Shown here in pieces: positions 5,774 through 24,495 of a DNA stretch of 24,753 nt. The stretch's first letter is position 1. Each line of letters starts with the position of its first letter. A program made the translations under genes and the position numbers. The notes under the pieces are model-generated. The model saw nothing but the letters and a program-made list of their open reading frames with translations. It was not told the origin of the DNA and ran no database searches. Source of the stretch: a virus; the IMG/VR virus record IMGVR_UViG_3300038701_003675, positions 1-24,753 of that record; one strand, written 5' to 3'.

Positions 5774-6427
5774 ATGTCTAAGATAGAGGTGCATATTGCT
5801 GATGATCATCCTACAGTTGTAGAAGGCTTCAAAGCTTTAATGAAAGCTCATAATATAAGTGTATCTGGAACTTCTTATAACGGAGAACAAACAATTAAAT
5901 GGTTTAAAGATCAATCGGCAGATGTATTAATACTGGACATTTCAATGCCAAAAAAAAATGGATTTGAAGTATTACGATTTTTAAAAAATAAAAATCAAAA
6001 AACGATAATTGTATCAGGTTATCTAACGGATCATTTTGTTAGAGAAAGTTTACAATTAGGAGCTCTTGGATATGTAAGTAAGAGGGATACGGCTTCTTGT
6101 ATTATAGAAGCAATTTATAGTGTGATACGAGGAGAACAATACTTAAGTAAAGAAGTTATTGATACTACTGCAAATTCTATTGAATTAAGATTGGATAATG
6201 AACAAGAATTAGAACAAGAACTAGCTCACTTAGGATTGTCTACAAAAGAAATTGAGGTGTTTAAGCTAGTTGCTAGAAACTACTCTTCTGATGAAATAGC
6301 TGATGAGTTAGATGTTACAGGAAATACCATAAGAACATATTTCAAAAGGATACGTGATAAATTAAAGATAAAAAAAATGATAGGAGTTGTTCGTTATGTA
6401 TACGAACAAGGATATTATAAAAAATAA
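5774..6427 (+). CDS. Orphan NarL/LuxR-family response regulator in the phage accessory region
   Basis: 217 aa. An N-terminal receiver domain (residues 3-120) carries D10/D11, the phosphoacceptor D55 (VLILDISMP), S81 (IIVSGY) and K103 (YVSK), so phosphorylation looks intact. A C-terminal LuxR-type helix-turn-helix spans about 155-212 (LSTKEIEVFKLVARNYSS, then DEIADELDVTGNTIRTY). Such proteins bind DNA as dimers once phosphorylated by a histidine kinase. No kinase gene is in the window, so it would have to listen to a host kinase, to another signal, or to small phosphodonors. It sits alone behind two terminators and a promoter-like site, and a weak terminator follows, so it may be expressed apart from the phage late genes. 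Confidence 0.93.
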   Translation: MSKIEVHIADDHPTVVEGFKALMKAHNISVSGTSYNGEQTIKWFKDQSADVLILDISMPKKNGFEVLRFLKNKNQKTIIVSGYLTDHFVRESLQLGALGYVSKRDTASCIIEAIYSVIRGEQYLSKEVIDTTANSIELRLDNEQELEQELAHLGLSTKEIEVFKLVARNYSSDEIADELDVTGNTIRTYFKRIRDKLKIKKMIGVVRYVYEQGYYKK

Positions 6428-6524: not shown

Positions 6525-6704
6525 ATGAAAAAACTAATAATTTTCTTTGCAGTACTATTTGCATTCTCTTTGACATCTTGTACAGATTTAATTTCAGAAG
6601 ACGATGAAACAATCTTACAAACACAAGCAATTGACAAAGACGACTCGGTTAATCCAGGAGGGTCAGGACAAGGAGGGGAAGAAGGAGAAAACGAAGAAGG
6701 TTAG
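6525..6704 (+). CDS. Small acidic outer-membrane-type lipoprotein
   Basis: 59 aa from the ATG at 6525. A lipoprotein signal (MKKLIIFFAVLFAFS) ends in a lipobox LTSC with the acylated Cys near residue 19. The mature part is short and acidic (ISEDDETI), then Gly/Glu-rich (PGGSGQGGEEG). Bacteroidota lipoproteins with acidic residues after the Cys are often surface-exposed, but the acidic stretch here is not directly next to the Cys. A longer frame starting further upstream would mask the signal peptide and is rejected. The four-helix membrane protein starts inside this gene in another frame. Function unknown; lipoprotein morons commonly alter the lysogen surface, which is inference here. Confidence 0.7.
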   Translation: MKKLIIFFAVLFAFSLTSCTDLISEDDETILQTQAIDKDDSVNPGGSGQGGEEGENEEG

Positions 6705-7377
6705 AAATATTTTCTACTATATTCTCGCAGTAATTTGTGCAACCTCTCTCTTTTCTTTTGAATTCTTTCCTGATGAAACAATTCAGCATAAAGAAGCAAC
6801 TGAATTGTGGAGATCAAGTAAAAAAGAAAGAACAAAAGCTTTATCTAAAGTTAAAGAATTAGCAAAAGGCTCACCAGAATATGTTGCTTATGTTGAAGCA
6901 GCGTCCAAAACTAATTTATCGTACGAGAAACTTAAACAAGTGAGAAAGGATGATAAATTTTTTGGCTTCTCTAATAAGCAACAGTTTTTTGGGGAGTTTG
7001 GTCCTATGCTCTGTTTTTTCATATACGCAATCTTTAATTTATTTAGATCTTTTTATTTTGAAAGAAAAAACTTAGGAGTTAAAATATTTCATGGGATTAT
7101 CATATCTGGTACGTTATTTTATTTCTTCTGGATTTTTCAAAGGTTTCAAGATTTCAGTAAGGCAACATATTATTTAATGACTTTTGTGTCTGCTGGAATA
7201 ATTGTTTTAGCTGTTTATTTAATCACAAAGTACCAAGACCACTATATTAATATTTTAAAGAAAAATTTCCGGGACCTAGCAATTTTCAGTATTAAAAATA
7301 CCAAAGAAGAAAAAAAGGAAGAAGCATTAAGTTTGATAAAGAAAATTACTAAAGAAAAAGAAACAGCTTTAAAGTAA
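6604..7377 (+). CDS. Uncharacterised four-helix inner-membrane protein
   Basis: 257 aa if translated from the ATG at 6604, which lies 101 bases inside the lipoprotein gene in the +1 frame; a TTG at 6631 is the only later alternative before the first membrane segment. The first 33 residues are lysine-rich and compositionally odd, being a frame-shifted reading of the lipoprotein tail. Hydrophobic segments lie at about residues 36-54, 134-152, 163-181 and 188-207. Between the first two is a charged 75-residue loop (KEATELWRSSKKERTKAL), and a Lys/Glu-rich cytoplasmic tail ends the protein. No family was recognised. It is followed four bases later by the first small paralog, so the two are probably coexpressed. 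Confidence 0.6.
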   Translation: MKQSYKHKQLTKTTRLIQEGQDKEGKKEKTKKVRNIFYYILAVICATSLFSFEFFPDETIQHKEATELWRSSKKERTKALSKVKELAKGSPEYVAYVEAASKTNLSYEKLKQVRKDDKFFGFSNKQQFFGEFGPMLCFFIYAIFNLFRSFYFERKNLGVKIFHGIIISGTLFYFFWIFQRFQDFSKATYYLMTFVSAGIIVLAVYLITKYQDHYINILKKNFRDLAIFSIKNTKEEKKEEALSLIKKITKEKETALK

Positions 7378-7381
7378 AAAA

Positions 7382-7606
7382 ATGCGTGAAGAGAAAAAGT
7401 TACAAGATATAACGTTAGAATTGTTAAAGGCCATTAGTTCAGAGGAGTTATCAGAAGATTTACAAGAAATTTTTATCGGTTACTTATCTTCTGAGGCATC
7501 TGATAATACAGTGCAAAGAACAAAAAACGTAAGTACATATTTTAAAATACAGACGTTCTTAAGAAAAGTAGGGCGCTTGAAAAGTATCAATCGGTGGTCG
7601 AATTAA
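7382..7606 (+). CDS. Small soluble accessory protein, copy 1 of a paralogous pair
   Basis: 74 aa, soluble, helix-rich, no export signal. It is paralogous to the gene at 8395-8631. In a hand alignment without gaps, residues 25-69 here and 28-72 there share 21 of 45 positions, including EDL, IF-x-GYLSSE, SD, STY and FL. No known domain was recognised; the spacing of the invariant GYLSSE and STY blocks suggests a small helical bundle or adaptor. It starts 4 bases after the four-helix membrane protein, probably in one transcript. Its function may relate to either the membrane protein or the response regulator. Confidence 0.6.
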   Translation: MREEKKLQDITLELLKAISSEELSEDLQEIFIGYLSSEASDNTVQRTKNVSTYFKIQTFLRKVGRLKSINRWSN

Positions 7607-7659: not shown

Positions 7660-8172
7660 ATGAGACATCTAATATTTTCATTTCTATTGATACTTTCTAG
7701 TTATAGTTTTTCTCAAAAGAAGGTAGAAAAACTTAAAGAATATAAAGCTAATAATGGGGTTACCTATAAAATAGGAGATTCTATAAAATTAAATAAGGGA
7801 TCAAACTTCAACGGATCCTTTAATTATGTTATGATTGGTGGTTGGGCAGTTTCAATGAATGCTGAACAAAATAAGCTCCCATCAACAAACCAAGGTTTAA
7901 TTCTAACAGTAAAGAAAATCCGAAAGTATAACCGAAAAAGATATAAGGGCGTTATTTTTACTGTTGGAGGAGGGAATATCACTAATTATTTGTTAATGAT
8001 AAATGAAGCAATTGAAGCATGCGAAATTACTCCTTGCTCTGAAAAAAACTCATTTTCTGGTTCAGAAAGTAAGTATGATAAGTTGAAAAAGCTTAAAGAA
8101 CTCCTTGATTCTGGAGCTATCACAAAGGAAGAATTTGAGAAGGAAAAGAAAAAGATTCTTAAAGAAAACTAA
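7660..8172 (+). CDS. Exported protein with C-terminal SHOCT domain
   Basis: 170 aa from the ATG at 7660, chosen because it places a standard signal peptide at the N-terminus (MRHLIFSFLLILSSYSFSQ); an ATG at 7639 and a TTG at 7627 give longer, less natural ends. The mature domain is basic and beta-rich (GVTYKIGDSIKLNKGSNFNG). The last 32 residues form a SHOCT domain (KLKKLKELLDSGAITKEEFE), a short helical unit often found at the ends of proteins and thought to aid oligomerisation. An envelope location is expected. It lies between the two small paralogs and ends 31 bases before a strong terminator. The target or partner is unknown. Confidence 0.75.
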   Translation: MRHLIFSFLLILSSYSFSQKKVEKLKEYKANNGVTYKIGDSIKLNKGSNFNGSFNYVMIGGWAVSMNAEQNKLPSTNQGLILTVKKIRKYNRKRYKGVIFTVGGGNITNYLLMINEAIEACEITPCSEKNSFSGSESKYDKLKKLKELLDSGAITKEEFEKEKKKILKEN

Positions 8173-8203
8173 CTCATGGAAATACCTTATTTCATAATCT
8201 AAG

Positions 8204-8236
8204 TCGACATAATATCTTTATTGTGTCGATTTTTTT
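8204..8236 (+). terminator. Rho-independent terminator after the SHOCT gene
   Basis: A ten-pair stem with one G-T pair, TCGACATAAT (8204-8213) with ATTGTGTCGA (8220-8229), loop ATCTTT, followed by seven T residues. It ends transcription just before the structured element. Confidence 0.85.
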
Positions 8237-8237
8237 G

Positions 8238-8245
8238 TATGTTTG
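8238..8245 (+). promoter_or_regulatory. Perfect TAnnTTTG -7 box upstream of the structured RNA
   Basis: TATGTTTG matches the Bacteroidota -7 consensus exactly. No good -33 TTTG sits at the usual spacing; the nearest TTG (8221-8223) is too close. Initiation about seven bases downstream would put the RNA 5' end near 8250-8253, at the first strand of the long stem. The ten bases TATGTTTGTG recur at 18318-18327 in the immunity region. Confidence 0.4.
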
Positions 8246-8248
8246 TGA

Positions 8249-8382
8249 TGCAAGAATGTTTTAGGAGAAATCCGAAAAACAATTATTTACGATAAGAGTT
8301 TACCTATGGGTAGCTAATCCGAAAGGCTAGCAGTCTGTTCCTTGAACATTCTTGCAACCCTAAGGGTAAACTCGCATACAAA
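8249..8382 (+). ncRNA. Candidate pseudoknotted structured RNA (leader or small RNA)
   Basis: Two long perfect inverted repeats interlock. TGCAAGAATGTT (8249-8260) pairs with AACATTCTTGCA (8345-8356), and GAGTTTACC (8296-8304) pairs with GGTAAACTC (8365-8373), with a further GGGT/ACCC helix (8308-8311, 8357-8360). Because the strand order is A-B-A'-B', both can form together only as a pseudoknot. Two hairpins have GAAA tetraloops: GGA-GAAA-TCC (8264-8273) and GCTA-AT-CC-GAAA-GG-C-TAGC (8313-8331). A small GTTC/GAAC hairpin (8337-8347) competes with the long stem. TTTGTATG (8234-8241) can also pair with CATACAAA (8375-8382), though it overlaps the promoter box. The GNRA-type loops occur only when read on this strand. 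It may be a cis-acting leader of the 8395 gene or a separate RNA; I could not match it to a known class. Confidence 0.65.
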
Positions 8383-8394
8383 TTAATTTTCGAC

Positions 8395-8631
8395 ATGCAA
8401 GAAGAAAATCAAAGTGAAAAAGCATTGGAGTTAGTAAAAAAATTATTCTCTCAATGCACAGCTATAGATTTAAGAGAAGATTTGAACCAAATATTTTATG
8501 GGTATTTATCTTCTGAAATTTCAGATAGTCAAAGAGAGCGATCTTTGAAATCTAGTACCTATCTTAGTTTGATAGATTTTTTAACTAGAATGTCTAACTT
8601 ACCAAAAATTGATAGCCGTGATCGATTATAA
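8395..8631 (+). CDS. Small soluble accessory protein, copy 2 of a paralogous pair
   Basis: 78 aa, the paralog of the 7382-7606 product; shared blocks include EDL, IF-x-GYLSSE, SD, STY and FL. The two copies differ at the N-terminus and C-terminus and have diverged well beyond recent duplication. The ATG lies 12 bases after the last strand of the structured element, so that element would form most of its 5' leader. No Shine-Dalgarno sequence is visible, as is usual in this phylum. The end overlaps the next gene by 14 bases if that one starts at the GTG at 8618. Function unknown. Confidence 0.65.
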   Translation: MQEENQSEKALELVKKLFSQCTAIDLREDLNQIFYGYLSSEISDSQRERSLKSSTYLSLIDFLTRMSNLPKIDSRDRL

Positions 8632-8854
8632 AGAAGAAGTTAAAAAGCTTATATTAGAGAAATATTGTCCTGCGGATCCAGACTCTAATGAAGTAGAAAA
8701 AACCACAGAAGATTTAGTAAGTAGTTTTCAAAAGGTGATTCCGCACAAAGCCATAGACGGTCATGTAGTCTATCAAGCTCTTACAGAGCTAGGATATAAG
8801 CCAAAAGAACAAGAACCTTTGGTCTTTATGTGGTATTTTAAAAGAAAAACCTAG
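8618..8854 (+). CDS. Small uncharacterised protein ending in a WYF-K/R motif
   Basis: 78 aa from the GTG at 8618 (a TTG at 8609 is the alternative), overlapping the end of the second small paralog. Acidic and helix-rich, with no export signal. Its C-terminal half (DGHVVYQALTELGYKPKEQE, then PLVFMWYFKRK) resembles small proteins I recall from Bacteroidota mobile elements, with no function that I know. Non-ATG start and overlap point to translational coupling. It is the last gene of the accessory cassette: a strong terminator begins 20 bases after the stop. Confidence 0.6.
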   Translation: MIDYKEEVKKLILEKYCPADPDSNEVEKTTEDLVSSFQKVIPHKAIDGHVVYQALTELGYKPKEQEPLVFMWYFKRKT

Positions 8855-23739: not shown

Positions 23740-24495
23740 TTGAAAAATCTACTTGAAATATTGAGAGATGAAAAAACCTTGGTTGTATGCAATCACTCTG
23801 GAGGTAAGGATAGCCAAGCTATGTATTTAAGGTTGAGAAATATTGTTCCCAATCATAGACTCGTAGTTATTCATGCTCATTTGCCAGAAGTTGAGTGGGA
23901 AGGAACAGAAGAGTTTATTCGATCCACTATTGACCATGAGTTTTTCGTAGTTCAATCTGGCAAGACCTTTTTTGAAATGGTTGAACATAGACAGAAATTC
24001 CCTTCGCCCAGCAATCGACAATGTACCAGTGATCTTAAACGTGCGCCAATACAAAAACAAATACGCAGACTTTGTAATGACCGAGGATTTACAACAGTAC
24101 TTAATTGTATGGGGTTGAGAGCAGAAGAAAGTTCCTCCAGAGCAAAAAAACAGGTATTGAAGATCAACAAGACTCAGACCAATGGAAAACGTGATTGGTA
24201 TGATTGGTTGCCCATTCATAAAATGACAACAAAAGAGGTTTTCCAATGTATCAGCGATAATAAACAAACCCCATTTTGGACATATGGAAAAGGATTGAGT
24301 CGGAAGAGTTGCTGTTTTTGCATTATGGCCAGCGAAGAAGATTTGTGTATCGCTGCCAAATTGAACCCTGAACTTTTAGAAAAGTACGATCAATACGAGA
24401 GAAAACTAGGGCACACCATGATAATGCCATCAAAGAGCAAAGGAAAAAGAACGTTGAAACAAATTATAAACAATAGTAGAGAATATGCCAATTGA
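23740..24495 (+). CDS. PAPS reductase-like PP-loop family protein
   Basis: 251 aa, start TTG at 23740, three bases after the DUF1643 stop; no nearby ATG precedes the PP-loop. Residues 20-25 are the ATP-pyrophosphatase loop SGGKDS. RQCTSDLKRAPIQKQI, MGLRAEESSSRAKK and a late Cys cluster SCCFCIMASEEDL follow, as in phage PAPS-reductase-domain proteins. Members activate a substrate with ATP, and relatives (DndC, CysD, TilS-type) modify sulfate, DNA or RNA. Which reaction this one carries out cannot be told; the Cys cluster may bind iron-sulfur. The gene overlaps the HNH gene by 11 bases. Confidence 0.85.
   Translation: MKNLLEILRDEKTLVVCNHSGGKDSQAMYLRLRNIVPNHRLVVIHAHLPEVEWEGTEEFIRSTIDHEFFVVQSGKTFFEMVEHRQKFPSPSNRQCTSDLKRAPIQKQIRRLCNDRGFTTVLNCMGLRAEESSSRAKKQVLKINKTQTNGKRDWYDWLPIHKMTTKEVFQCISDNKQTPFWTYGKGLSRKSCCFCIMASEEDLCIAAKLNPELLEKYDQYERKLGHTMIMPSKSKGKRTLKQIINNSREYAN

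Follow-up and report, generated by a model that had tools for sequence, protein, structure and literature searches.

A pseudoknotted phage leader related by sequence to the C4 antisense RNAs, with a guide predicted to read the downstream start codon

Judged by its sequence, the pseudoknotted element at positions 8238-8409 of the viral DNA analysed here (IMG/VR record IMGVR_UViG_3300038701_003675; the window is this whole stretch of 24,753 nucleotides) is a divergent RNA of the C4 antisense clan (Rfam CL00128), nearest to the family c4-2 and below its curated cut-off, with the variant feature that its predicted guide reads the start codon itself. We consider it, with a probability of about 0.85, to be the leader of a short phage operon that would shut off the translation of a 78-aa ORF by an antisense mechanism like that of phage P1 c4. 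Three features seen in the sequence carry this reading, namely a fold of the C4 clan, its covariation, and a three-way match between a 5' copy (a1), the guide (a') and the start codon.

As shown in Table 1, the two perfect inverted repeats of 12 and 9 bp that the first-pass annotation had described as interlocked in the order A-B-A'-B' were recovered strand by strand, and so were the GGGT/ACCC helix and the two GAAA hairpins. By inspection of the sequence, helix A pairs TGCAAGAATGTT (8249-8260) with AACATTCTTGCA (8345-8356) over 12 bp and continues with a U.G pair, one mismatch and AGG (8263-8265) facing CCT (8340-8342), in such a way that a1 and 8340-8356 are Watson-Crick paired at 15 of 17 positions. 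When the core is folded by itself, hp2 competes with the 5' part of a'. The loop of the start-codon hairpin a2 displays the ATG (8395-8397) together with the target TGCAAGAA (8396-8403).

Table 1. Parts of the element and ORFs behind it, in window positions.
Feature	Positions	Strand	Basis
TAtgTTTG box, probable Bacteroidota-type promoter	8238-8245	+	sequence; 3 nt ahead of a1
a1, 5' copy of the target (strand A extended)	8249-8265	+	pairs with 8340-8356, covarying
GGA-GAAA-TCC hairpin between a1 and core	8264-8273	+	sequence
C4 stem P1, 5' strand (strand B), GAGTTTACC	8296-8304	+	covariation; c4-2 P1
Inner helix P2, 5' strand GGGT	8308-8311	+	covariation
hp1, GAAA-tetraloop hairpin of the C4 core	8313-8331	+	covariation; c4-2 alignment
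hp2, alternative small hairpin TGTTC-CTT-GAACA	8336-8348	+	fold of core by itself
a', guide (strand A')	8345-8356	+	12/12 with a1; 8349-8356 8/8 with 8396-8403
Inner helix P2, 3' strand ACCC	8357-8360	+	covariation
C4 stem P1, 3' strand (strand B'), GGTAAACTC	8365-8373	+	covariation
Start-codon hairpin a2, ATTTTC (8386-8391) / GAAAAT (8404-8409)	8386-8409	+	predicted
78-aa ORF, presumed controlled gene	8395-8631	+	
81-aa ORF, overlapping the 78-aa ORF	8609-8854	+	

The element had been matched to no known class, a statement that gave way to its placement in clan CL00128, whose members are C4, c4-2 and c4-a1b1 and which takes in the c4 repressor RNA of phages P1 and P7. In an Rfam scan of the window no family exceeded its gathering score. 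The sole clear match in a sensitive scan of 8170-8420 was c4-2 (RF02944) at 8298-8373, and the covariance search proposed in the first-pass annotation thus gave a family match, which at 27.1 bits stays below the c4-2 cut-off of 41 bits; its E-value was 8.7e-4 against all Rfam families and 2.0e-5 when that one family was run on the window alone. Helix B corresponds to P1 of c4-2 and GGGT/ACCC to the c4-2 inner helix, and there is agreement in the UAUGGG...CCCUAA core and in the GAAA hairpin as well. The C4 covariance model (RF01695) gave no match in the window at E ≤ 10. A general role of stem P1 as terminator was discarded, because a U-run follows P1 in canonical c4-2 and none does in the window type.

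Of 395 genomes sampled from the phylum, 9 contained c4-2 above its cut-off, with two to six copies each, and five low-scoring copies (L051, L056, L059, L060 and L061) showed the layout of the window. Together with the window these made up model R1, with which ten further convincing copies were obtained from an order-level sample, and motif scans of IMG/VR yielded four phages with the leader (L081, L083, L084 and L085), bridging relatives with c4-2 scores of 29.7, 49.4, 39.9 and 33.0 bits, respectively. A further covariance model (R2), from which the window, L081, L084 and L085 had been left out, recovered the window at 45.5 bits (E 3.7e-9) and scored the three phages at 55 to 92 bits. The final set comprised 20 loci of the window type, 15 from bacteria and 5 from phages with the window counted among the latter, and they have in common the box, a1, the C4 core, the guide directly ahead of the inner helix and a hairpin loop containing the start codon. 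The hairpin between a1 and core has a GAAA loop in L051, L056, L072, L079 and L081 and a GCAA loop in L061 and L068, and is missing from some relatives, e.g., L059. Promoter type and relatives indicate that the host phylum is probably Bacteroidota. In another genome, a deep relative (L073:1500-1780) lies before a different gene (MLTAKFWAKLF...), and its guide, 5' copy and start codon still match.

Similarity searches of the phage collection with the DNA and proteins of the window locus gave nothing useful; the 78-aa protein and a 161-aa protein of the window had no relatives in IMG/VR, and its tape measure had none in genome contigs. Early motif-scan matches in viral and genome contigs were set aside, as those inspected look like chance. 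Some canonical copies are in tandem (L048/L031 and L050/L032, about 120 and 180 nt apart), and some c4-2 copies have no 77-aa gene behind them or no evident a1. Three related viral contigs (L009, L010 and L012) carry, directly before an ATG, a short element that is not clearly C4, TATGGGAG...CCGAAAGG...CTCCCTAA flanked by GTGT/ACAC.

Repeats of this kind had been said to be rare by chance, and a perfect inverted repeat of at least 12 was indeed found in only 2 of 5000 dinucleotide shuffles of 8249-8382; the fold of 8240-8394 was also more stable than that of shuffles (z = -3.5). Covariation is a stronger argument for the predicted structure than these chance arguments. In a MAFFT alignment of the first six sequences, with the structure assigned manually, both partners are changed in 13 of 23 pairs, which 0 of 500 shuffles equalled, and in 22 sequences, in an alignment fitted to the structure by the model itself, this applies to 20 of 22 pairs, with 88.8% of the cells paired versus at most 45% with slid structures. 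P2 is paired in 100% of these 22 sequences and has double changes at three of its four pairs. The first-pass annotation had staked the structure on how the paired strands vary among homologues, and compensated changes were found in helix B, P2, the second GAAA hairpin (hp1) and, over the 20 loci, A/A'.

What had been overlooked is that a' is also complementary to the start codon downstream (AUGCAAGAA at 8395, 8 of 8 bp), which lies in the loop of a small hairpin. The start-codon region repeats the first 8 nt of strand A, and this exact target occurs on the + strand of the window at 8249 and 8396 only; the gene at 7382, which starts with ATGAGAGAA, was rejected as a second target. Defining the guide as the nucleotides just before the 3' strand of the inner helix, its match to the upstream stretch was 10 to 16 of 17 Watson-Crick positions, and its match to the start codon plus codons 2-3 was 7 or 8 of 8, both in 20 of 20 loci. 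The guides of these loci amount to 12 distinct 8-mers, each fitting its own leader and its own start codon, and when leaders or start regions were redealt among loci the observed sums were reached in 0 of 20,000 permutations, the loci being partly related and not independent, and the 12 guides spanning phage and bacterial loci and unrelated proteins. The covariance models exclude a1, and in them the guide is paired neither with a1 nor with the start codon. The rule also holds for canonical c4-2 copies, in which the guide is an 8-nt hairpin loop and the target immediately precedes the ATG. The predicted A-A' helix is best read as the guide paired with its own 5' copy, a guide that fits the downstream start codon too, and the earlier proposal of a regulatory leader before an accessory gene is supported.

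The TAtgTTTG box keeps its standing as a probable promoter, as a box of the TAnnTTTG type was found 3-4 nt ahead of a1 in 19 of 20 loci by script and in the remaining one (L078) by eye; in L084 it reads TATATTAG. From this distance, a1 should lie at the 5' end of the transcript. For each of the 20 loci a hairpin was predicted whose loop holds the start codon; its pairs are changed in L081, L084 and L073, and these hairpins are singly weak (-0.6 to -4.4 kcal/mol).

The window type shares with c4-2 (RF02944) the P1 stem, the UAUGG...CCUAA core, the inner helix and the GAAA hairpin, and in canonical copies the guide likewise matches both a 5' copy and the sequence at the following ATG, whereas the Rfam c4-2 model contains neither a1 nor target. 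The two differ in the guide, 12-17 nt abutting P2 in the window type and the 8-nt loop of hairpin 2 in c4-2, and in the target, which covers the start codon in the window and lies just 5' of it in c4-2. The same scan of phage P1 detected C4 (RF01695) and c4-a1b1 (RF03163, 'a1, b1 targets of C4 antisense RNA'), of clan CL00128, in a record with the order a1, b1, c4, a2, b2, icd (73 aa) and ant1. As in P1/P7, a 5' copy, c4 core, target and small ORF follow each other on one transcript in the window; the piece of guide directly before ACCC is CUGUCAACCC (CUGUCAA) in P1 and UCUUGCAACCC (UCUUGCA) in the window, and the small ORF is Icd of 73 aa versus 78 aa. The P1 guide consists of two pieces, a' and b', whereas that of the window is one nearly continuous piece, and the P1 targets a2/b2 precede the start codon, whereas the window target includes it. 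L081 (IMGVR_UViG_3300033553_000697), the sole other viral contig in which the motif scan found the core motif of the window, has the same box, a1 (16/17), core, guide and start-codon hairpin, with a guide of UUCUGUCA compared to UUCUUGCA in the window, and its 86-aa downstream ORF is unlike that of the window in sequence.

From these features we infer a transcript, its cut, a translational block, an action in trans and a purpose of the silencing. Transcription would start at or near a1, and the C4 core would fold in such a way that the guide a' is presented. In the intact leader a' would lie on the nearby a1, forming the pseudoknot, and the gene would be open; once the core is parted from a1, probably by an RNase P-type cut 5' of P1 as known in phage P1, the freed a' would anneal to the start-codon loop of the 78-aa gene (UGCAAGAA, 8396-8403), on its own transcript or on a second one, and prevent translation. 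The purpose might be to keep the operon silent in the lysogen and against incoming phages of the same type. Computed duplexes were -24.5 kcal/mol for a1:a' and -11.2 kcal/mol for a':start codon; since the former is stronger, the guide should sit on a1 in the uncut leader, leaving the gene open, and repression should need either the cut or action on another transcript. RNase P cleaves the c4 of P1/P7 at the 5' end of its stem P1, and the c4 loops a' and b' pair with the target close to the ribosome site (PMC5320573). Expression of ant in P1, with icd of the same operon, is silenced by c4 RNA (PMC8198154, PMC12197685), which is listed as trans-acting (PMC12197685).

A sub-version of this explanation, with the same parts, is a switch acting only in cis and never cut, where a' on a1 would mean gene on and a' on the start codon gene off, the balance being shifted by the ribosome, a protein, temperature or a ligand. 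We regard it as possible, if rather unlikely: a1, a' and start codon are laid out on one transcript, and the window lacks, on the 5' side of P1, the GGW with which mature P1/P7 c4 begins (PMC5320573), but the same layout in P1/P7 yields a processed antisense-repressing RNA (PMC5320573; trans-acting, PMC12197685), and with a1:a' far stronger a plain equilibrium switch would nearly always be on.

Nothing was found pointing to a metabolite riboswitch or a ribozyme, to which the layout had been likened. A riboswitch of a new class would account for a structured leader with a junction and a GNRA hairpin ahead of a gene, yet it is very improbable given that the pseudoknot is explained by a variable, covarying guide, that the controlled genes are unrelated small ORFs and antirepressors with no single metabolic theme, and that the element belongs to the C4 clan. 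Guides matching two flanking copies, and the presence of two to six copies of c4-2 in each of nine genomes, would also suit an RNA-guided mobile element, the copies being a target-site duplication and the RNA guiding insertion; this has hardly any likelihood, however, as the downstream copy is always on the start codon (just before it in canonical c4-2), the inspected copies had no recombinase, nuclease or reverse transcriptase between them or immediately after them, and the clan is one of translational antisense RNAs. An HDV-like or other self-cleaving ribozyme, suggested by a strand order like that of a nested pseudoknot, can practically be dismissed, because sensitive Rfam scans returned no ribozyme family, in agreement with the earlier judgement that the element is not HDV-like, and the 12-bp strand varies in sequence, in step with the start codon.

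The gene presumably controlled by the antisense leader encodes a protein akin to the MxKENQ proteins (89-94 aa) that follow bacterial copies and that measure 90-93 aa behind the five low-scoring copies, and the 81-aa ORF is perhaps in the same operon. Structure prediction for the 78-aa protein gave four helices at pLDDT 67, too poor for a fold search, and a PDB profile search gave nothing significant. Among the 395 Bacteroidota genomes it had two weak matches, both without a C4 leader, and no homology to the 77-aa canonical c4-2 proteins was detectable. Next to its gene, small ORFs are present in the window and no antirepressor was recognised. The arrangement of P1 c4-icd-ant, with a small ORF and an antirepressor behind the c4 RNA, has counterparts in the relatives L081, where the 86-aa ORF is followed by a KilA-N protein and then a P22_AR_N protein, and L084, with a Bro-N antirepressor-type gene directly behind the leader; L083 and L085 have ORFs without assigned function there.

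With these data a pseudoknot so far unclassified would join the phage immunity RNAs, a well-known class, as a C4 type with its guide on the start codon itself, shown in a conserved hairpin, and c4-2-type RNAs would gain a target open to testing, namely the start of the gene behind them. Such a guide would also help explain the KENQ N-terminus common to many controlled proteins, predicts genes kept silent in these phages, including KilA-N and Bro-N antirepressors, and provides a rule for finding more: the guide is the start codon plus codons 2 and 3, reverse-complemented. In 2010, C4 was on record from Proteobacteria and phages (PMC2864571), and many C4-like RNAs with changed a' loops occur in Acinetobacter (PMC5320573). 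A more speculative and doubtful extension is a re-targetable antisense module of Bacteroidota and their phages, with the guide rewritten for each gene, in which bacterial copies would serve as trans-acting RNA immunity against phages under like control.

Some neighbouring genes were also observed. The canonical c4-2 loci L025-L058 have downstream a conserved family of 77-79 aa (MSTNTLSKE...WLNELAEILNPYL), with several paralogues per genome, mostly different guides and no Pfam or NCBIfam match above cut-off. At 7382-7606 of the window, directly behind the ORF at 6604-7377, lies a gene that has no C4 leader and encodes a paralogue of the 78-aa protein, of 74 aa (MREEKK...GYLSSE). This temperate phage record also encodes a response regulator with receiver and LuxR-type domains (5774-6427) and a protein of the PAPS-reductase family (23740-24495).
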